The notes under the pieces: model-generated
What the model was told of the DNA's origin: nothing
Databases searched by the model: none
Seen by the model: only the letters and a program-made list of their open reading frames with translations
Program-made: the position numbers and the translations under genes
From: Streptomyces sp. P3
GTDB lineage: Bacteria > Actinomycetota > Actinomycetes > Streptomycetales > Streptomycetaceae
Length of the DNA: 64,000 nucleotides
Assembly (NCBI RefSeq): GCF_003032475.1
Contig: NZ_CP028369.1
Span: 3,658,001 to 3,722,000 of the forward strand
Direction of reading: 5' to 3'
Shown here: positions 13,588 to 22,746 of the stretch, one piece after another
How positions within the stretch are numbered: position 1 is the stretch's first letter
How the letters are laid out: each line of letters starts with the position of its first letter

Positions 13588-14643
13588 TCAGGGCCGCCGT
13601 GCTTCGCCTTCCGGCGAGGACGGCGGCTTTCCGCTGCTCGCGCGGACGATCAGCCGGGTCGGGACCAGGGTCTTGTCGACCAGGTCGGGCCCGGTCCGGT
13701 CGATCTTGGTCAGCAGCTTCTGCAGGCTGAGCCGGCCGACCGCGGCGAAGTCCTGCCGCACGGTGGTCAGCGGCGGCCAGAAGGCCTGGGTCTCCTCCAT
13801 GTCGTCGAACCCCACGACGCTGACGTCCTCGGGAATCCGGCGGCCGAGCTCGTGCAGGGCACGCATGACGCCGAGCGCCATGTGGTCGTTCGCGGCGAAG
13901 ATCGCCGTGACCTCCGGCCGCCGCCCCAGAGTGAGCCCGTGCAGGTATCCGGAGCGGGTGGTCCAGTCGCCGTGCAGCACCGGGGGCGCGACGATGTCGG
14001 CTTCCTGCAGTGTTTGCCGCCAGGACTCGACCCGATGGGCCGCGGAGAACGAGGTCAGGGGTCCGGCGATGTGCCACACCTGCCGGTGACCGAGTTCCAG
14101 CAGGTGTTCCGTCGCCTGACGGGCGCCCTGCGCCTGATCGGTGTCCACCACGGTGTAGCCGGGGCCGGTGTCGGAGTCGACGACCACCATCGGCACCCCC
14201 GGCGGGAGGCTGAACTCCGCGTCGTCCAGGAGATGCGCCTCGAAGACGAGGATCACCCCGTCGACGGCCGCCTCGCTGAGCCGGTCGTAGGCGCCGGAGA
14301 GCCTGCCCATCGTCGGGTCCGGCACGGGGATGAGGGTGACGGCGTACTTGGCGCGCGCGGCTTCCTTGGCGATGGCGTCGAGCGTGCGCGTGTTCCCGAA
14401 CGTCCTGAGCGTGAAGGTGATGACGCCGATCGTGTTGAACCGGCCGCTCTTGAGCGCGCGTGCGGCTCCGTTCGGCCGGTAGCCCAGCGCCTGCATCGAC
14501 TCCACGACCCGCTGCCGGGTCGCCGGGTCGACGTTGGTGTGGCCGTTGGACACGCGTGACACCGTCTGCGGCGCGACACCCGCGTGCCGGGCGACGTCCG
14601 CCATCGACGGCCGGGGCCGTCCGGACCTGGACCTTTCCCCCAT
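13588..14643 (-). CDS. LacI family transcriptional regulator
   Basis: A 351-residue sugar-responsive repressor. The helix-turn-helix MADVARHAGVAPQTVSRVSN begins at residue 14, the hinge helix is GYRPNGAARALKSG, and the periplasmic-binding-like effector domain runs to the end (IPEDVSVVGFDDMEET, PLTTVRQDFAAVG). ATG 14643 is used; the ribosome site is poor (AGGGG ten bases away). It converges on the GH5 gene and sits near GH43, GH5 and MGH1-like hydrolases, so it is the obvious candidate to read the operators at 10867 and/or 11777, but the sequence alone cannot pair them. Confidence 0.9.
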   Translation of the reverse strand: MGERSRSGRPRPSMADVARHAGVAPQTVSRVSNGHTNVDPATRQRVVESMQALGYRPNGAARALKSGRFNTIGVITFTLRTFGNTRTLDAIAKEAARAKYAVTLIPVPDPTMGRLSGAYDRLSEAAVDGVILVFEAHLLDDAEFSLPPGVPMVVVDSDTGPGYTVVDTDQAQGARQATEHLLELGHRQVWHIAGPLTSFSAAHRVESWRQTLQEADIVAPPVLHGDWTTRSGYLHGLTLGRRPEVTAIFAANDHMALGVMRALHELGRRIPEDVSVVGFDDMEETQAFWPPLTTVRQDFAAVGRLSLQKLLTKIDRTGPDLVDKTLVPTRLIVRASSGKPPSSPEGEARRP

Positions 14644-14771
14644 CGCGATGATCCCCTGTTTCCTTGTTCCGCCTGTTTCCCGGGCCCTGACGACAGCCTA
14701 GGCCCACTGCCCGGGGGTCTGCGGCACGAGGCCCCGCCCGCCTCCTCGCGCGGGATGCGCACGACCGTGGA

Positions 14772-15758
14772 TCAGGGCCGGGCGCCTTCGCCGAGGGCGT
14801 GCCGGTAGGCCTGTTCGTCGTCCTCGCCGAACACGGCGAACACGACGCGGTCGAAACGGCCGAGGTGGGCGTCCAGCCAGTCGGTGACCGCGCGCAGCGC
14901 GACGGGGGCGGCCTCGCTCCTCGGGTAGCCGAAGACGCCGGTGCTCACGGCGCAGAAGGCGAGGGTGCGGATGGTCTCCACCTCGGCGGCGAGGTCCAGG
15001 CAGGCCCGGTAGGAGGAGGCGAGCACCCGCGCGTCATCGGCCCGTGGACGGCCGTCGACGATCGGGCCGACCGTGTGCAGGACGTACCGGGCCGGCAGAT
15101 GGTGGCCGCGGGTGATCTTGGCCGTGCCGGGCGCTTCGGGCGCGCCCTGCAGCGTCATGATCGCGTGGCAGTCGTCGCGCAGCCGGGGGCCCGCGGCGTT
15201 GTGGAAGGCGTTGTCGATGCAGGGGTGCAGCGGGCGGAAACAGCCCAGCAGGGCGCTGTTGGCGGCGTTGACGACGGCGTCCGCGTCCACAACGGTGAGG
15301 TCTCCGCGCCACAGCACGGTGCGGTCTCCGGCCGGGAGGAGGGACCCGGGAAACCGTTCCTCGATCGTGGGCAGAGTCTCCACCCGGACGGTCGGCCGCA
15401 GGACGCGCTCCCCGCCCAGGAGCGCGTCCACCGCGTCGTTCGCGCCCTGCGGCAGCGGTCCGGGCCCGCGGACCGTCAGCACCGCACGAAGCAGCTCGCG
15501 GGCCGTCGCCGCGTCCATGCCGTCGAGGTTCCCCGGCGAATCGGCCCGCAGCCCCAGCCGGTGTACGGCCGGATCGGCGGCGAGCAGGCGCAGCGCCGCG
15601 CGGACGTGAGCGTCCAGCCGGTCGGCGGCCGCGGGGGCCGTCGCCGGCCGGAAGGGCTCGTCCAGGGCGACGGCCTCCCGGTAGGCGGTCAGAGGCAGCG
15701 GAGGGGGCACTGCCTCCGTGCCGGCCAGGACGTCGGACTCGGCGCGGGACGCGTTCAT
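14772..15758 (-). CDS. Zinc-containing macrodomain protein-ADP-ribose hydrolase
   Basis: A 328-residue protein of the protein-ADP-ribose hydrolase family whose macrodomain occupies about 140-325. Features: LWRGDLTVVDADAVVNAANS (first strands and the Asp/Asn of the ribose site), GCFRPLHPCIDNAFHNAAG with Cys173, His178 and Cys180 as the zinc-binding loop that marks the class found next to class M sirtuins, and FCAVSTGVFGYPRSEAA, the diphosphate loop. The N-terminal 130 residues are a helical extension. The predicted job is to strip ADP-ribose from proteins modified by the sirtuin at 18123-18971. ATG 15758 follows GGAG. It is the last gene of a five-gene minus-strand array. Confidence 0.88.
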   Translation of the reverse strand: MNASRAESDVLAGTEAVPPPLPLTAYREAVALDEPFRPATAPAAADRLDAHVRAALRLLAADPAVHRLGLRADSPGNLDGMDAATARELLRAVLTVRGPGPLPQGANDAVDALLGGERVLRPTVRVETLPTIEERFPGSLLPAGDRTVLWRGDLTVVDADAVVNAANSALLGCFRPLHPCIDNAFHNAAGPRLRDDCHAIMTLQGAPEAPGTAKITRGHHLPARYVLHTVGPIVDGRPRADDARVLASSYRACLDLAAEVETIRTLAFCAVSTGVFGYPRSEAAPVALRAVTDWLDAHLGRFDRVVFAVFGEDDEQAYRHALGEGARP

Positions 15759-15847
15759 CAAGGGCTCCGGGCGGTGCGTACGGACAGGTCGTGCCGACGG
15801 CCCGGCGCGTGCACGTCCTCGTGCGCGGGCCGGGCCGTCGGCGGCGG

Positions 15848-16171
15848 TCAGAGCTGTTCGAGCGTGCCGGCGTGCAGCTCGCCGATCCGGCCCCCGGCCG
15901 TCTCGTACGTCCAGAAGGCGTGGACGGTGGAGGTGTTGAGGTTCATCGCGTGGGTGACGGTCATGCCCGACTTCTCCACCCAGCCGAGCAGGAAAACGCC
16001 GGGGGCGACCTTGGCCGTGTGCAGGATGACGTCCTCGCTCGCTCCCGCGCCGGGACCGGCGACGGTCTCGTAGTGCAGGGTGGTGCCGTCGGGGCCGTAG
16101 GCGTTGTGGAAGACGACGCCGTTGTCGACGCTGAACCGGTACGTCTTGCCCGCGTAGGTGGGGCTGCTCAT
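15848..16171 (-). CDS. MoaF-related small beta-barrel protein
   Basis: A 107-residue protein with no signal peptide. YAGKTYRFSVDNGVVFHNAY, then LHYETVAGPG, VFLLGWVEKSGMTVTHAMNL and VHAFWTYE match the MoaF-like lipocalin-type barrel seen in Actinobacteria. Family members bind small hydrophobic or phenolic ligands; catalysis is unproven. It lies 89 bases before the macrodomain gene and 72 bases after the NTF2-like gene on the same strand, so cotranscription is likely. Confidence 0.75.
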   Translation of the reverse strand: MSSPTYAGKTYRFSVDNGVVFHNAYGPDGTTLHYETVAGPGAGASEDVILHTAKVAPGVFLLGWVEKSGMTVTHAMNLNTSTVHAFWTYETAGGRIGELHAGTLEQL

Positions 16172-16243
16172 GCTGTGGCGCTCCCTCGGTGCGTCCGCCG
16201 GAGGTCGGGGGTGTCCGGGGTGTCCGGCGGTGTCCGGTGTCGG

Positions 16244-17005
16244 TCAGAACAGGCCGTTGCCGTGCGGCAGTTCGGACGGTACCGGTGCGATGACGTCCCA
16301 GTGCTCGACGATCTTGCCGTCCGCGACGCGGAACAGGTCGTAGTAGGCGACCGCGACGCCGAACTCGCCCTCGGACTGCGTCAGGACGAAGTCGCCCTCG
16401 GCGATGACCTTGTGGACCTTCTTGTAGACGAGGTTCTTGCCCTGTTCGGCCCACTTCGCCGCGGCCGCCCCGAAACCGTCGAGACCGTCGGCGGCCTCGG
16501 TGTTGTGCTGGTGGTAGGTCTCGGTGGAGATGTAGTCGGTGAGCACCGAGTAGTCGGCACCGACGAGGACCTTCTCGGCGAACCCGGTCACCAGGGCGCG
16601 GTTGGCCTCGGTCTTGTCGACGTCGGTGACGGCGGCGGGGCCGTCGGTCTGGGAGCGGCCGGAGACGGTGACCTCGACCTCGGGGGTCAGGGCGTCCCAG
16701 TGCTCGGCCAGCCTGCCGTCGGCGTCGACGCGGAAGATGTCGAAGCCGACGAGCGGGTCGGGGCCGAACCCGTGGTAGGTGCCGTGCAGGGCGACCAGGT
16801 CGCCGTCGGCGATGACCCGGGCGCCTTCGTAGCGGAAGTCCTCGCCGAGGCCGGTCACGAGTGCGCGCAGCGCCTCGGGGCCGTCGGCGGCGAGGGCGCT
16901 GTGCTGCGTGTAGTCCGTGGCCGCCCAGCGGTCCACGGCGGAGGGGTCCTTGTCGCCGAACAGCTCCGAGGCGGCCTGGAGAACGGCGTTCTTTGCGTTG
17001 CTCAT
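16244..17005 (-). CDS. Tandem NTF2/SnoaL-like protein
   Basis: A 253-residue protein made of two NTF2-like domains. The first runs about 5-125 (DRWAATDYTQHSALAADGPE, DLVALHGTYHG, DIFRVDADGRLAEHWD) and the second about 130-250 (DYISTETYHQHNTEAADGLD, DFVLTQSEGEF, DLFRVADGKIVEHWD). Both keep the YxQH...EHWD core, so the gene arose by internal duplication. Relatives act as isomerases, cyclases or carriers. The start at 17005 has AAGGAAG upstream. It sits inside the sirtuin/macrodomain array, after a 159-base gap that could hold an internal promoter. Confidence 0.82.
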   Translation of the reverse strand: MSNAKNAVLQAASELFGDKDPSAVDRWAATDYTQHSALAADGPEALRALVTGLGEDFRYEGARVIADGDLVALHGTYHGFGPDPLVGFDIFRVDADGRLAEHWDALTPEVEVTVSGRSQTDGPAAVTDVDKTEANRALVTGFAEKVLVGADYSVLTDYISTETYHQHNTEAADGLDGFGAAAAKWAEQGKNLVYKKVHKVIAEGDFVLTQSEGEFGVAVAYYDLFRVADGKIVEHWDVIAPVPSELPHGNGLF

Positions 17006-17164
17006 GACGGTCTTCCTTGCGTGGGGGACCTGTGCGGGATGAACCGGAGGTCGAGTGGCGATATGTTCAAACTAGGCCGCTGCGAGGGGTCAACCGGGGC
17101 AGAAAAGGACTTCTGATGCTCAAAAAGCGACAGCTCGAGACTCGTGGGTGCTGACGCGTGTGTG
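17006..17164. other. Intergenic gap inside the sirtuin array
   Basis: The gap holds an AT-rich patch (17061-17074) on which a minus-strand promoter might sit, but no -35/-10 pair has a normal spacing. On the plus strand AAAAGGA followed by ATG opens only a 12-codon frame. Confidence 0.35.
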
Positions 17165-18076
17165 TCAGCCGAGGGCGGCGCGGACGACGTCGGCGAGGGG
17201 TGTGGCGGGGTGGCCGGTGAGGCGGGGCACGGCGTCGCTGACGCCGTCGAGCTCGCCGGACGCGATGGCCGTGTAGGTGGACACCCAGGCGTCCAGCTGC
17301 CACGGCGGGGCGCCGTAGGAGGCACGGGAGGCGTAGGCCTCCTCGAGCGTCTCCGGCCGGTAGGCGACCGTGCGTCCCAGCTGCTCGGACAGGATCACGG
17401 CCGCTTCGTCCAGGGTCAGGGACTCGGGGCCGGTCAGGTCGTAGGCGACGCCGGTGTGGTCGTCCGGACGGGAGAGCACCGCGGCGGCCGCGTCGGCGAT
17501 GTCGTCCTGGCCGACGAACGCGGCACGCCCCCGTCCGGCCGGACCGCGGATGACGCCGTCCTCACCGACCAGGTCGGGGACGAACTCGGCGTAGAGGTTG
17601 TCCCTGAGGAACGTGTACGCCAGTCCGCTCGCCCGGATGTGCTGCTCGGTGTGGAAGTGGTCGCGCGCCAGGGTGAAGGCGGCGTCGGGGGCCGCGCCGT
17701 AGAACGAGACGTACACCAGATGGCGCACTCCCGCCTCGGCGGCCGCGTCCACGAACGCCCTGTGCTGGGCGAGGCGGTCCACGCTCTCGGAGGCGGACAC
17801 CATGAAGACGGTGCGGATACCGGCGAGGGCCTCGGTCACCGCGGCCCGGTCGGCGTAGTCGCCGCGCACGGCCACCGCGCCGGGCAGTCGCGGAGCCCGC
17901 TCGGGGCGGCGGACCACCAGGGTCTGCGGGACGCCCCGGTCGGCCAGCCGCCGGGCCACCCGCCCGCCGAGACGGCCGGTGGCCCCGGTGACCGCGATCG
18001 TGGGGGCGGACACCTCCGGTGCCGCGGGTGCTGCGGATGTCTCGGATGCCTTGGATGCCTTGGATGCCTCGGACAT
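17165..18076 (-). CDS. NmrA/SDR-type NAD(P)H-binding reductase
   Basis: A 303-residue Rossmann protein related to NAD(P)H:quinone oxidoreductase QOR2 and NmrA-like proteins. The nucleotide loop is TIAVTGATGRLGGRVARRLA near residue 26; HLVYVSFYGAA, YTFLRDNLYAEF and VAYDLTGPESLTLDE are typical later motifs. The first 24 residues are low complexity (SEASKASKASETS) and are encoded by a 9-base repeat; the start at 18076 is nevertheless supported by GAGGAG eight bases upstream. It begins 46 bases after the sirtuin stop, so the two are probably one transcript. Confidence 0.85.
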   Translation of the reverse strand: MSEASKASKASETSAAPAAPEVSAPTIAVTGATGRLGGRVARRLADRGVPQTLVVRRPERAPRLPGAVAVRGDYADRAAVTEALAGIRTVFMVSASESVDRLAQHRAFVDAAAEAGVRHLVYVSFYGAAPDAAFTLARDHFHTEQHIRASGLAYTFLRDNLYAEFVPDLVGEDGVIRGPAGRGRAAFVGQDDIADAAAAVLSRPDDHTGVAYDLTGPESLTLDEAAVILSEQLGRTVAYRPETLEEAYASRASYGAPPWQLDAWVSTYTAIASGELDGVSDAVPRLTGHPATPLADVVRAALG

Positions 18077-18122
18077 GAATGGGTCTCCTCGCGTGGTGAC
18101 GTGGGCGCCCCGCCGGAACCCG

Positions 18123-18971
18123 TCAGGGATCGAGCCGGTCGAGCAGCCGGTCCGCCCCGAGGGGAACGGACAGGGCCCGCTCGCCGAGGTCTGCGGGTAC
18201 GTCGGGGTGTCGGGGGTTGATCCGGACGAGCCGGGCCCGGGGCGTCCGGCGCACCACGTCCTCCATGGGCAGGCGGATCACCCCCGGGGTATTGAATCCG
18301 GCGCCGAGTTCCAGGACGAGCAAGGTGCTGTCCCTGGGCGCGTCCTCGAGCCACCGCACCAGCCGCCGCCCCGCCGGCAGATAGGCCCGGTCGACGAACT
18401 CGGGACCGACCCGGACGTTGGGGAAGACCTCGCCGCCGCAGTTGGGGCACCGAGGCAGCGCCCGGGAGTCGGTCACCCGGCCCGTGTCACGGTCGTAGGC
18501 CGCGAGGATCGTGTCGAGGAACGGTTTGCTGGGCCATGTCTCAAGGGTGCACGGGACGGTGCACTGCAGGCGGCCGTAGTCGCCCTGCGGGGTGAAGACC
18601 CGGTCGGGGGCGAAACCGCTGCGGGCGAAGAGGGCGTCGACGTTGGACGTCGTCACCCAGTGGTCGCGCTCGCCCACCAGCGTCCTCAGCCGCCGGTACA
18701 GGGGGTTGGGGCCCGGGCTGTGACGGATGTCGTCGATGTGCACGGCCCAGTACCCCCACATCATGTCCTTCGGCAGGGGCGCGCCGAGCAGGTAGCGCGA
18801 GCGCAGACCGAGCCGGTGGAGCCCGGGCAGCAGTTCCCTGAAGCGTTCCGCGTCGCCGTAGTCGTAACCGGCCGCCGCGCTCAGACCGGCGCCGGCCGCG
18901 ACCAGGACCCGGTCGGACTCCTCCAGCCACGTGCGGATCGTCTCGTACGCCGCCCCTGCCACCCGCGCCAT
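18123..18971 (-). CDS. Class M-type sirtuin (SirTM-like, predicted ADP-ribosyltransferase)
   Basis: A 282-residue Sir2-fold enzyme. The NAD loop is GAGLSAAAGYDYGDAERF (27-44). The ribose-binding TSNVD contains Asn110. At the place of the catalytic histidine of ordinary sirtuins there is Gln129 (TPQGDYG), as described for class M sirtuins that ADP-ribosylate proteins rather than deacetylate. Zinc ligands are Cys137, Cys141, Cys175 and Cys178. The C-terminal half holds ELGAGFNTPGVIRLPMEDVV, where ordinary sirtuins have the GTS/N motif. ATG 18971 follows GGAGGGCG. The zinc macrodomain hydrolase lies in the same array, as in the firmicute systems, but no lipoate-protein ligase or GcvH-like gene is present in the window. 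Confidence 0.85.
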   Translation of the reverse strand: MARVAGAAYETIRTWLEESDRVLVAAGAGLSAAAGYDYGDAERFRELLPGLHRLGLRSRYLLGAPLPKDMMWGYWAVHIDDIRHSPGPNPLYRRLRTLVGERDHWVTTSNVDALFARSGFAPDRVFTPQGDYGRLQCTVPCTLETWPSKPFLDTILAAYDRDTGRVTDSRALPRCPNCGGEVFPNVRVGPEFVDRAYLPAGRRLVRWLEDAPRDSTLLVLELGAGFNTPGVIRLPMEDVVRRTPRARLVRINPRHPDVPADLGERALSVPLGADRLLDRLDP

Positions 18972-19067
18972 CGCCCTCCGCCGTCCTTTCCGGATTCCGC
19001 CGGGACAGGGAGAATCCGCCCCTTCGGCAGTACGACCAACGTACGAGGACGACAGAGGACGTCCCGA

Positions 19068-19081
19068 TAAACTTGTGACTG
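19068..19081 (+). promoter_or_regulatory. -10 element; AraC message may be leaderless
   Basis: TAAACT (19068-19073) lies eight bases before ATG 19082, and no ribosome binding site precedes that ATG. The expected start point therefore coincides with the start codon, the usual layout of leaderless actinomycete messages. Confidence 0.35.
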
Positions 19082-19981
19082 ATGATGGCCAAAACGCGAC
19101 ACGGTTCGTCGAAGGAGATCCTCGAGGTCCCCTTCGCTCCGCCCGCGGGTACCCCGGCCGGAGTCGAGGTCATGTCACTGGCGGAGCTGCGCCGCCGTGT
19201 CTCCGCGCCCACCCTGGGCCGGCCGCTGCGCCCCGACTTCCACCATCTGCTCACCCTCACGACGGGCGGCCTCCGGCACACCGTCGACTTCACCGCTCAC
19301 GTGCTGCGGCCCGGGTCCTGGCTGTGGGTGCGCCCGGGGCAGGTGCATCAGTGGGGTGCCCTCGGCCGGGCCGAGGGCACGCTGGTCCTCTTCCGGCAGG
19401 ACGCGCTCGACGCGGCCACCGCGACGGCCGCCCGGGTCGACGACCCGCACGCACCCGTCGTCACCACCCCCGTCGCCGACGACGCGCAGGCCCTGACCAT
19501 GGCCGCGGAGCATCTGAGCCGCGAGTTCCAGGCACTCGGCCATCTCCCCCTGGAGGTGCACATGGCGGCCCTGCGTCACCTCCTGGCCGTCCTCCTGCTG
19601 CGGCTCGCCCACCTCACCGTCCCGGTCGGCAGCGCCGCACCGGAACCCGACGAGACGTACCTGCGGTTCCGGGACGCGGTCGAACGGGACTTCACCCGCA
19701 CCCGGCGGGTGGAGGACTACGCCCGCACGCTCGGCTATTCGGGCCGCACCCTCTCCCGGGCGACGCTGGCGGGCGCCGGGCTCAGTGCGAAGGAGTTCGT
19801 CGACCGCCGGGTCGTGCTGGAGGCGAAGCGGCTGCTGGCGCACGGCGACCGGACCGCGGCCCAGATCTCGGACCAGCTCGGCTTCGTCAACCCCTCCCAG
19901 TTCAGCAAGTACTTCCTGCACCGCACGGGCCAGTCCCCGATCGAGTTCCGCAAGGAGGTCCGCGGGCGGGGCGACGGCTGA
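19082..19981 (+). CDS. AraC family transcriptional regulator
   Basis: A 299-residue activator-type regulator. The N-terminal half is a cupin-like ligand domain (FHHLLTLTTGGLRHTVDF, GSWLWVRPGQVHQWG). The C-terminal pair of helix-turn-helix units covers about 195-295: RVEDYARTLGYSGRTLSRAT and TAAQISDQLGFVNPSQFSKY followed by the FLHRTGQSPIEFRK signature. It is transcribed divergently from the sirtuin gene across 110 bases and is the obvious local regulator of the sirtuin/macrodomain array, though no operator could be assigned. ATG 19082 or 19085 may be used. Confidence 0.88.
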   Translation: MMAKTRHGSSKEILEVPFAPPAGTPAGVEVMSLAELRRRVSAPTLGRPLRPDFHHLLTLTTGGLRHTVDFTAHVLRPGSWLWVRPGQVHQWGALGRAEGTLVLFRQDALDAATATAARVDDPHAPVVTTPVADDAQALTMAAEHLSREFQALGHLPLEVHMAALRHLLAVLLLRLAHLTVPVGSAAPEPDETYLRFRDAVERDFTRTRRVEDYARTLGYSGRTLSRATLAGAGLSAKEFVDRRVVLEAKRLLAHGDRTAAQISDQLGFVNPSQFSKYFLHRTGQSPIEFRKEVRGRGDG

Positions 19982-20008
19982 CCCGCCCCCACCGCCGGCG
20001 CCGACCAG

Positions 20009-20476
20009 ATGCTGGTGCTGGCCTCCAAGGGGCGCAGGATCTCGGCGCGTGTGGTGGACACGCTGATCGCGTTCGGGGTGGCGTATCTCCTCCTGGTCGG
20101 CCTGGCGGGGTCGACGAGCGACGACGGGGCGATTCTGGTCATCGCGTCCGTGAGCCTGGTGGGCGGCGCGCTGCTCTACTACCTGCCCCTGGTGCACTGG
20201 TGGGGCACCACCGTCGGCAAGCGGGTCCTCGGGCTGCGGGTGGTCCGGCTGTGGTCGGACGGGACGCTTCCGCCGTCCTGGAAGGACACGTTCCTCCGTG
20301 AGTTCGACCGGGCCGCCTTCCTGTCGATTCCGGTGCTGAACGTGTTGGTCGGGGCGATCCTGCTCGCGCAGATGGCCAAGGGCCGGGGGACCTACCACCA
20401 GAGCAAGTTCGATCGCGCGGCGCGCACCGTCCTCGTGCGGTGGCCCGGCGTGCGCGCCCGGTCTGTCGCGGCGTAG
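20009..20476 (+). CDS. RDD family membrane protein
   Basis: A 155-residue protein with about three membrane helices (TLIAFGVAYLLLVGLAG, ILVIASVSLVGGALLYYLPL, FLSIPVLNVLVGAILLAQ). RISARVVDTLI carries the Arg-Asp pair and GTTVGKRVLGLRVVR the conserved loop. ATG 20009 has no good ribosome binding site. The same frame continues upstream as PAPTAGADQ, the proline-rich lead typical of longer RDD proteins, back to the AraC stop codon 27 bases before. It may be translated by coupling to AraC, or it has lost its N-terminus. Function unknown. Confidence 0.75.
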   Translation: MLVLASKGRRISARVVDTLIAFGVAYLLLVGLAGSTSDDGAILVIASVSLVGGALLYYLPLVHWWGTTVGKRVLGLRVVRLWSDGTLPPSWKDTFLREFDRAAFLSIPVLNVLVGAILLAQMAKGRGTYHQSKFDRAARTVLVRWPGVRARSVAA

Positions 20477-21810: not shown

Positions 21811-22746
21811 TCAGCGCCCGAGGGACGCCAGCAGCGCCGCGAGCTGCCCAAGAGGCTCCGGGCCCACGACGCGCAGGACGACGGTGTCCGCGCCGGAGGC
21901 GTGCAGGGCGCGCACGTCGTCGGCGGCCTGCGCGGGCGTGCCGGAGACGGTGAACACCTCGTCCTGAGGGCGGCCGAGCCAGGCACCGTGGCCCTCGGTG
22001 TGCGGGTGCAGGGTGCGCGCGACGTCGTCGGCGTCGTCGCCCACGCAGGCGAACGACAGTACGGTCAGGGTGTGTTCGGGACCCGCGCCGCCCTTGGCTG
22101 TCAGGGCCCGGGTGTTCTCCAGGTCGGCCGGCCCGTGGCCCTCGGCGATCAGCACGCCGTCCGCGACCCGCCCGGCCAGCTCCAGCGAGCGGGGCCGGAC
22201 GACGCCCGCGATCACCGGCGGCACCAGGACCGGTGGATGCACCAGCGTGACGCCGTCCAGGCGCACTTCACGGCCGTCGAGCTGGACCCTCTCACCGCGC
22301 AGCAGCGTACGCACGGAGGTGATCGTCTCCTCCAGCAGGGCCAGCGGCGACCGGGGCGCGACGCCGACCGACTCCATCCACTCCCGCACCCCGTGCCCGA
22401 CCCCGGCGACCAGCCGTCCGGGGAACACCCGGGCCAGCGTGGCCAGTTCCATGGCCAGCAGCGCCGGGCTGCGCAGCGGGGCGGGGGCGATGCCGATGCC
22501 GACCCGGATGCGTTCGGTGGCTCCCAGCGCCACGGCCGCCGCCGACACCCCGCCGTTCCACCCGAGGTCCTCGACCACCCACAGGTCGTCCACGCCGAGC
22601 GCCTCGGCCTCCCGCGCGAAACCGGGCAGGTCCTCGGGCGCCCAGTCCCGGTCGTACATGACACCGAGCCGTACGTTCGCCTCTTTCGCCTCGTTCAAGT
22701 GGTTGGAGGTGTTCGAGTCGTTCGAGTCGCTCGTCATCTTCGTCAT
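21811..22746 (-). CDS. Luciferase-like (LLM) flavin-dependent oxidoreductase
   Basis: A 311-residue TIM-barrel monooxygenase of the bacterial luciferase/F420-dependent reductase superfamily. LGVMYDRDWAPEDLPGFARE opens the barrel; ATERIRVGIGIAPAPLRSPA and RLVAGVGHGVREWMESVG are the FMN/F420-binding strands. The first 25 residues (TKMTSDSNDSNTSNHLNEAK) are low complexity and partly encoded by short tandem repeats; the true start may be internal. Known class M sirtuin operons also carry luciferase-like monooxygenases, so the proximity to the sirtuin array (3 kb) may matter. It probably shares a transcript with the FAD monooxygenase. Confidence 0.8.
   Translation of the reverse strand: MTKMTSDSNDSNTSNHLNEAKEANVRLGVMYDRDWAPEDLPGFAREAEALGVDDLWVVEDLGWNGGVSAAAVALGATERIRVGIGIAPAPLRSPALLAMELATLARVFPGRLVAGVGHGVREWMESVGVAPRSPLALLEETITSVRTLLRGERVQLDGREVRLDGVTLVHPPVLVPPVIAGVVRPRSLELAGRVADGVLIAEGHGPADLENTRALTAKGGAGPEHTLTVLSFACVGDDADDVARTLHPHTEGHGAWLGRPQDEVFTVSGTPAQAADDVRALHASGADTVVLRVVGPEPLGQLAALLASLGR

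Follow-up and report, generated by a model that had tools for sequence, protein, structure and literature searches.

Organization of the Locus

The stretch analyzed here, referred to below as the window, comprises 64,000 nucleotides of Streptomyces sp. P3 (contig NZ_CP028369.1, positions 3,658,001-3,722,000), whose genome of 9.85 Mb is held in one contig. It carries a five-gene array on the minus strand (14772-18971), in which a class M sirtuin (SirTM) and a zinc macrodomain protein (Zn-Macro) are encoded together with a tandem SnoaL protein. The association of SnoaL with the SirTM/Zn-Macro pair is strong, and no description of this arrangement was found in the literature searched, the scope of which did not extend to subscription papers and preprints.

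Transcription of the array begins with the SirTM gene (18123-18971; 282 aa), whose product is a predicted ADP-ribosyltransferase, or writer. It is followed by the genes for an accessory NmrA-type NAD(P)H reductase (17165-18076; 303 aa; PF13460/PF05368; top structural match ytfG, 2zcu, 1.1e-37), the tandem SnoaL protein with its double NTF2 fold (16244-17005; 253 aa; PF12680 and PF07366), which is the constant partner and the candidate target, and an accessory MoaF-like protein (15848-16171; 107 aa; PF22036; 5hal, 1.7e-8). The last gene encodes the Zn-Macro (14772-15758; 328 aa from the ATG at 15758; PF01661), a predicted ADP-ribosyl hydrolase, or eraser. An AraC-family regulator (19082-19981; PF12833 and PF02311) is encoded divergently on the plus strand. 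A first-pass annotation made from the sequence had named these six genes, and all of them are present on the strands it gave.

The Sirtuin and Macrodomain Pair

The window sirtuin gave no Pfam match at E ≤ 0.01, and its NCBIfam match was weak (37 bits, where the cut-off is 243). A phmmer search of the PDB (E ≤ 0.001) returned two matches only: 8rsn, a fungal macrodomain-SirTM fusion (4.8e-40), and 5a3a, the SpySirTM protein (5.5e-21). The catalytic HG of sirtuins is replaced by QG in the motif TPQGDYG, and both Q129 and G130 are invariant among 19 aligned sequences. Asn110 within TSN is invariant too. The GVGx[NT]TP motif reads GAGFNTP, a single change from V to A, and Arg187 aligns with Arg192 of SpySirTM, a position at which some relatives have His instead. 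The functions of these signature residues (QG, GVGx[NT]TP, and Asn118 and Arg192 of SpySirTM) follow PMC4518038. The nearest relatives of the protein come from Streptomyces, and one further sirtuin (PF02146) is encoded elsewhere in the genome.

The macrodomain carries the signatures NAAN, the Cx4HxC Zn-loop, and Dx3H (VVNAANSALLGCFRPLHPCIDNAFH), which are Zn-Macro features according to PMC11490716, so that its earlier description as a zinc macrodomain holds. The Zn-loop and Dx3H recur in 80 of the 81 macrodomains scoring above 120 bits. The top PDB match is MorMacro (8rsi, 5.6e-53), which belongs to a SirTM/Zn-Macro pair without lipoate genes; the alignment starts at residue 91 of the 332-residue query. 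In the region where Zn-Macros have a three-helix N-terminal extension, the protein has an N-terminal part of about 150 residues. The best family is NF003163 (protein-ADP-ribose hydrolase) at 256.8 bits, below its cut-off of 272 bits. At the position of SauMacro Asn46, the window macrodomain and most actinobacterial relatives have Thr, as read by eye from the alignment. This Asn helps to hold the Zn-loop in SauMacro, and fungal Mfs1 has Cys there (PMC11490716). The identity of the two proteins as a class M sirtuin and a Zn-Macro, predicted to form a writer/eraser pair, is well supported by these residues and matches, and the description of the sirtuin as SirTM-like by the first-pass annotation stands.

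Co-Occurrence of SnoaL with SirTM and Zn-Macro

Among 295 Streptomyces genomes, the window's included, SirTM was found in 14, and Zn-Macro (E ≤ 1e-40) was found in the identical 14. A SnoaL protein was counted as close at 67% identity or more and above 300 bits, and such a protein is present in 20 genomes, namely 14 of the 14 with SirTM and 6 of the 281 without it (Fisher p 1.2e-19, a value that overstates independence because the genomes are related). When the window's own genome is excluded, the close SnoaL is still found in 13 of 13 SirTM genomes. The two genes need not be neighbors, as they lie on separate contigs in genomes G294 and G247. Thus, SirTM was not seen without SnoaL in this sample, while SnoaL can stand alone, which is the pattern expected of a substrate. 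One genome with a broken SnoaL fragment of 70 residues (G190, locus L147) was excluded from the six without SirTM. In one of the six, G091 (locus L133), MoaF and a short macro-like remnant lie beside SnoaL, which suggests that the SirTM/Zn-Macro pair was lost there.

The other partners are less constant. NmrA (E ≤ 1e-60) was found in 5 of the 14 SirTM genomes and MoaF (E ≤ 1e-20) in 7 of them; each was also found in one of the six SnoaL-only genomes, both counts being made within the 20 SnoaL genomes. The first-pass annotation had proposed that a partner protein of the array might be the target of ADP-ribosylation. Of the four partners, only the double-NTF2 protein is constant and stands as a candidate target; NmrA and MoaF, being optional, are weak candidates.

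The neighborhood survey extends the association beyond Streptomyces. It covered the best 80 of 147 relatives from a scan of named bacterial genomes, with genes counted by tblastn at fixed bit thresholds. Macrodomain genes were found in 70 loci, SnoaL in 55, AraC (more than 100 bits) in 49, NmrA and MoaF in 15 each, DsbA-like genes in 12, and HxlR genes in 9. An actinobacterial clade of 63 loci was assigned from the sirtuin tree, and by similarity for loci outside the tree (including L093, with a broken sirtuin). SnoaL is present in 48 of these 63 loci: 27 of 36 from Streptomyces, 9 of 9 from Lentzea, 3 of 3 from Kutzneria, 2 of 2 from Nocardia, 1 of 2 from Actinoplanes, and one each from Frankia, Georgenia, Herbiconiux, Naasia, Microbacterium, and an unplaced actinobacterium. 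The loci from Umezawaea (one), Actinospica (one, on a short contig), and one Micrococcales strain yielded no SnoaL, and the two Nocardioides loci gave a short, weak match only. A conserved association, for which the first-pass annotation had suggested such a survey, is found both across whole genomes and across clade loci.

The commonest order in the clade is SnoaL, macrodomain, SirTM (37 of 63 loci). The order of the window type, SirTM, SnoaL, macrodomain, occurs in 6, and SnoaL lies on the opposite strand in 4. In 33 of 53 adjacent pairs, SirTM overlaps the macrodomain stop by four bases, according to our own start assignment. All six loci from Enterovibrio, Grimontia, Vibrio, and Shewanella have the order SnoaL, macrodomain, SirTM, and upstream of these lies an AraC gene of weak similarity (25-29% identity). 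Eight further loci (three from Synechococcus, two from Acidimicrobiales, and one each from Paenibacillus, Clostridia, and Centipeda) include a single one with SnoaL, L089, at a distance of about 8 kb. L096, L098, and L099 carry HG and are ordinary sirtuins.

The sirtuin tree, built by a quick method, retained 93 of 103 rows; those left out were shorter than 200 or longer than 340 residues, scored below 60 bits, or were L003, L142, and L145. The 60 actinobacterial rows form one group (SH-aLRT 99), and 44 of them have SnoaL in the locus. The six Vibrionaceae/Shewanella rows form a separate group (SH-aLRT 99), and a third group of 16 distant rows, mostly from the phylum sample described next, includes none with SnoaL. 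In that sample of 396 genomes across the phylum, the SirTM query was matched in 16 besides the window's, three of which lack QG (G615, G410, and G442). Of the 14 QG loci retrieved from these genomes, 8 had an adjacent macrodomain by the queries used. The SnoaL link is a mark of one SirTM branch, not of the whole class.

Properties of the Tandem SnoaL Protein

The predicted structure of SnoaL has a pLDDT of 95.3. The EHWD motif is kept in both domains, and the first Foldseek matches of the model are tandem-domain epoxide hydrolases; on these grounds, SnoaL is probably an enzyme or a binder of a reactive small molecule. Like Lsd19 and MonBI/MonBII, the tandem NTF2 epoxide hydrolases of polyether pathways, it has two SnoaL/NTF2 domains per chain, but it differs from them in sequence (13-17% identity) and superposes poorly over the whole chain (rmsd 15.6-16.5). 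A good structural match was obtained for single domains only (3g0k), and the VIA rows lie mainly over residues 1-111. Given these superpositions and this coverage, no enzyme activity is assigned to SnoaL.

Conservation was compared across the 45 loci at which SnoaL, SirTM, and the macrodomain each had a long match. The median identity to the window was 83% for SnoaL, 66% for SirTM, and 60% for the macrodomain, with SnoaL the highest in all 45. A SnoaL tree of 74 rows of at least 225 residues, without L003, L142, L146, and L148, separates the SirTM-linked proteins by a long branch (2.63, support 100) from the double-SnoaL paralogue that is common in Streptomyces. Three unlinked relatives group with Vibrionaceae, and the six close copies from SirTM-less genomes sit among the linked ones. 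The window SnoaL contains no Cys. If it is ADP-ribosylated, Asp121 and Glu212, two acidic residues specific to its clade, are the leading candidate sites.

The Divergent AraC Gene and Other Neighbors

Divergent intergenic regions between AraC and the operon were collected from 58 loci, the window included. The element AGTCnnnAGnnTATC precedes the AraC start by 1-4 bases in 26 of them, whereas the reversed control pattern was found in none, and its placement is independent of whether SirTM, DsbA, SnoaL, NmrA, or the macrodomain gene comes first in the operon. The conserved stretch next to AGTCnnnAGnnTATC in the AraC gene is the AraC coding start. The corresponding 17-base element of the window, TCAGTCACAAGTTTATC (19066-19082, minus strand), may be an AraC operator or simply the AraC promoter. 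It has one exact match in the genome and two others at three mismatches (control, one), and a wider regulon was rejected on the basis of the single exact place. A promoter and terminator scan over 14500-20100 found none.

The five array proteins gave no PADLOC match at E ≤ 0.01, and a role in anti-phage defense was rejected on this ground. A luciferase-like monooxygenase (LLM) gene of the window (21811-22746) was likewise rejected as a member of the system, with homologues in 3 of 99 loci (E ≤ 1e-6; many of the loci are short); together with an FAD monooxygenase, it resembles the LLM/OYE pair of firmicutes.

A DsbA-like gene stands first in many Streptomyces operons (L022, L029, L031, L035, L036, L038-L041, L052, L059, and L087), mostly before SnoaL, and before SirTM in L022; the L039 protein matches PF01323 and has a CAWC motif. 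In many of the Streptomyces loci, the order is DsbA-like, SnoaL, MoaF, and the DsbA-like gene is absent from the window array. An HxlR gene adjoins the macrodomain gene in L058, L068, L069, L070, L072, and L094. Two further kinds of gene, named by eye, are found repeatedly in the vicinity of SirTM (L021, L022, L023, L046, and Lentzea): an apparent zinc alcohol dehydrogenase, in 11 of 81 sources, and an apparent aldehyde dehydrogenase, in 10 of 81. In the phylum sample, 7 of 14 QG loci (L171-L175, L178, and L180) have a regulator of the HxlR family no more than about 2.2 kb from the distant SirTM, and for 5 of the 7 an adjacent macrodomain was detected as well.

A Possible Client of the Writer/Eraser Pair

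We infer, tentatively and at somewhat less than an even chance, that the array encodes a SirTM/Zn-Macro module for reversible mono-ADP-ribosylation, with the tandem SnoaL protein as its dedicated client. SnoaL is the best single reading of the ADP-ribosylation target that the genomic patterns suggest. In such a module, AraC would sense a small molecule or stress and control the locus. SirTM would use NAD+ to place one ADP-ribose on SnoaL, probably on an acidic side chain, which would switch the function of SnoaL, and Zn-Macro would take the ADP-ribose off. NmrA, MoaF, and, at other loci, the DsbA-like protein may act as optional helpers in this response to stress or electrophiles. The ytfG-like NmrA, DSBA, and HxlR families have stress roles. 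A redox or electrophile stress setting is suggested by these partner families and by the published link between SirTM and oxidative stress.

Several observations weigh against SnoaL as the client. No SnoaL was found within the fetched DNA of 15 of the 63 clade loci; for the three of these checked over the whole genome (L023, L066, and L081, i.e., G274, G294, and G247), it lies elsewhere in that genome. The six Streptomyces genomes with SnoaL and no SirTM retain the divergent AraC gene. With AraC (more than 100 bits) present in 48 of the 63 clade loci, the regulator is roughly as constant as SnoaL, and the genes could stay linked through shared regulation alone. SnoaL (E ≤ 1e-20) was found in none of the 16 other SirTM-matching genomes of the phylum sample, which implies that SirTM does not always need it. 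The alignment columns that are conserved in 51 actinobacterial SnoaL proteins associated with SirTM and changed in at least two of the six SirTM-less ones included no Asp, Glu, or Cys; hence, no individual residue stands out as a modification site. The slow evolution of SnoaL may be a mere consequence of its fold. Finally, the records contain some copies that look broken: SnoaL is in two pieces in G011 and has an interrupted reading frame in L079 and L080, both from Vibrionaceae; SirTM is in two pieces in G179; and the macrodomain gene contains a stop in G274 and is matched partially in G294.

The least improbable alternative, which we regard as possible, is that the target is encoded elsewhere and that SnoaL, NmrA, MoaF, and DsbA, never modified themselves, serve detoxification under common regulation within the same response to stress. 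The distant SirTMs without SnoaL, the AraC-SnoaL unit kept in six genomes without SirTM, and the HxlR genes near half of the distant QG loci are consistent with it, as is the resemblance of the partners to redox or electrophile enzymes (ytfG-like NmrA, DSBA, and the SnoaL protein, similar to tandem epoxide hydrolases). Against it stands the presence of SnoaL in every SirTM genome of the Streptomyces sample even when unlinked, with NmrA and MoaF optional.

It is unlikely that the pair ADP-ribosylates and releases a small molecule, or a metabolite bound to SnoaL, instead of a protein, with SnoaL and NmrA processing the same compound. The small-ligand folds of the partners would fit, but characterized SirTMs modify a protein, GcvH-L (PMC4518038), and no further widespread neighbor family emerged: in de novo clustering, no cluster beyond the macrodomain, SnoaL, sirtuin, AraC, and NmrA reached more than 11 of 81 sources. 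The simple gene caller used there missed known genes (the sirtuin cluster, identified by its motif, covered 51 of 81 sources), and the tblastn counts were used instead. A canonical lipoylated protein, either a genomic GcvH or an E2, as an unlinked target of the firmicute kind seems slightly less likely again. The genome does have two strong GcvH matches (PF01597; genome positions 8,938,293 and 493,653) and one BPL/LplA/LipB match (PF03099; 1,061,621); however, GcvH was not matched in 12 of the 13 distant QG-SirTM genomes and was matched weakly and partially in the 13th, G444, which indicates that SirTMs can serve targets other than GcvH, and Zn-Macros outside the extended operon were unable to demodify GcvH-L (PMC11490716). 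It is highly improbable that a common deacylase and a common macrodomain are neighbors here by chance; an ordinary deacetylase was among the outcomes that the first-pass annotation had named as fatal to its proposal. Databases label most such proteins NAD-dependent deacetylase/deacylase of the SIR2 family, but the catalytic His is replaced by Gln, and the distribution of SirTM and Zn-Macro is identical over 295 genomes.

If SnoaL is the client, the locus may belong to a second, lipoylation-independent SirTM branch of actinobacteria and marine gammaproteobacteria. The protein reversibly modified in this branch would be a tandem SnoaL/NTF2 enzyme, and NAD+ status would thereby gate an enzyme of small-molecule chemistry, a proposal that we hold a shade more cautiously. 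SnoaL, common to all 14 SirTM Streptomyces genomes of the sample and recurring in distant proteobacteria, offers one named candidate for the open question of the target, in a tractable host.

Comparison with Known SirTM Systems

Three contexts of SirTM have been described: the SirTM/Zn-Macro pair alone, an extended operon that includes GcvH-L and LplA, and a fused form (PMC4518038, PMC11490716). The main texts of both papers make no mention of Streptomyces or actinobacteria. The first-pass annotation had noted that lipoate genes are absent from the array, and no PF01597 or PF03099 match, and thus no lipoyl carrier or ligase just outside the array, was found within the window. It had also taken this absence as the mark of a new system, which does not hold, since SirTM/Zn-Macro pairs free of lipoate genes are already published; their targets are stated there to be unknown.

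The extended, lipoylation-dependent operon of Staphylococcaceae and Lactobacillales (GcvH-L, LplA2, LLM, OYE) has the same writer/eraser pair, a third protein alongside, and a link to redox enzymes. It differs from the window, which has no GcvH-L and LplA2 genes nearby and whose LLM is not conserved. In fungal Mfs1, the macrodomain is fused to SirTM; it is the closest solved sequence to the window sirtuin (8rsn), and the two proteins are encoded by separate genes in the window. The minimal pair of Methanobrevibacter oralis, Enterococcus faecalis, and Treponema pedis (PMC11490716), compared here by its published description, shares the QG sirtuin, the Cx4HxC macrodomain, and the lack of GcvH-L and LplA. 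To this pair, the window adds a constant tandem SnoaL protein and AraC, and it falls within the proposed SirTM/Zn-Macro/SnoaL variant, which is defined by a close tandem SnoaL in the same genome.

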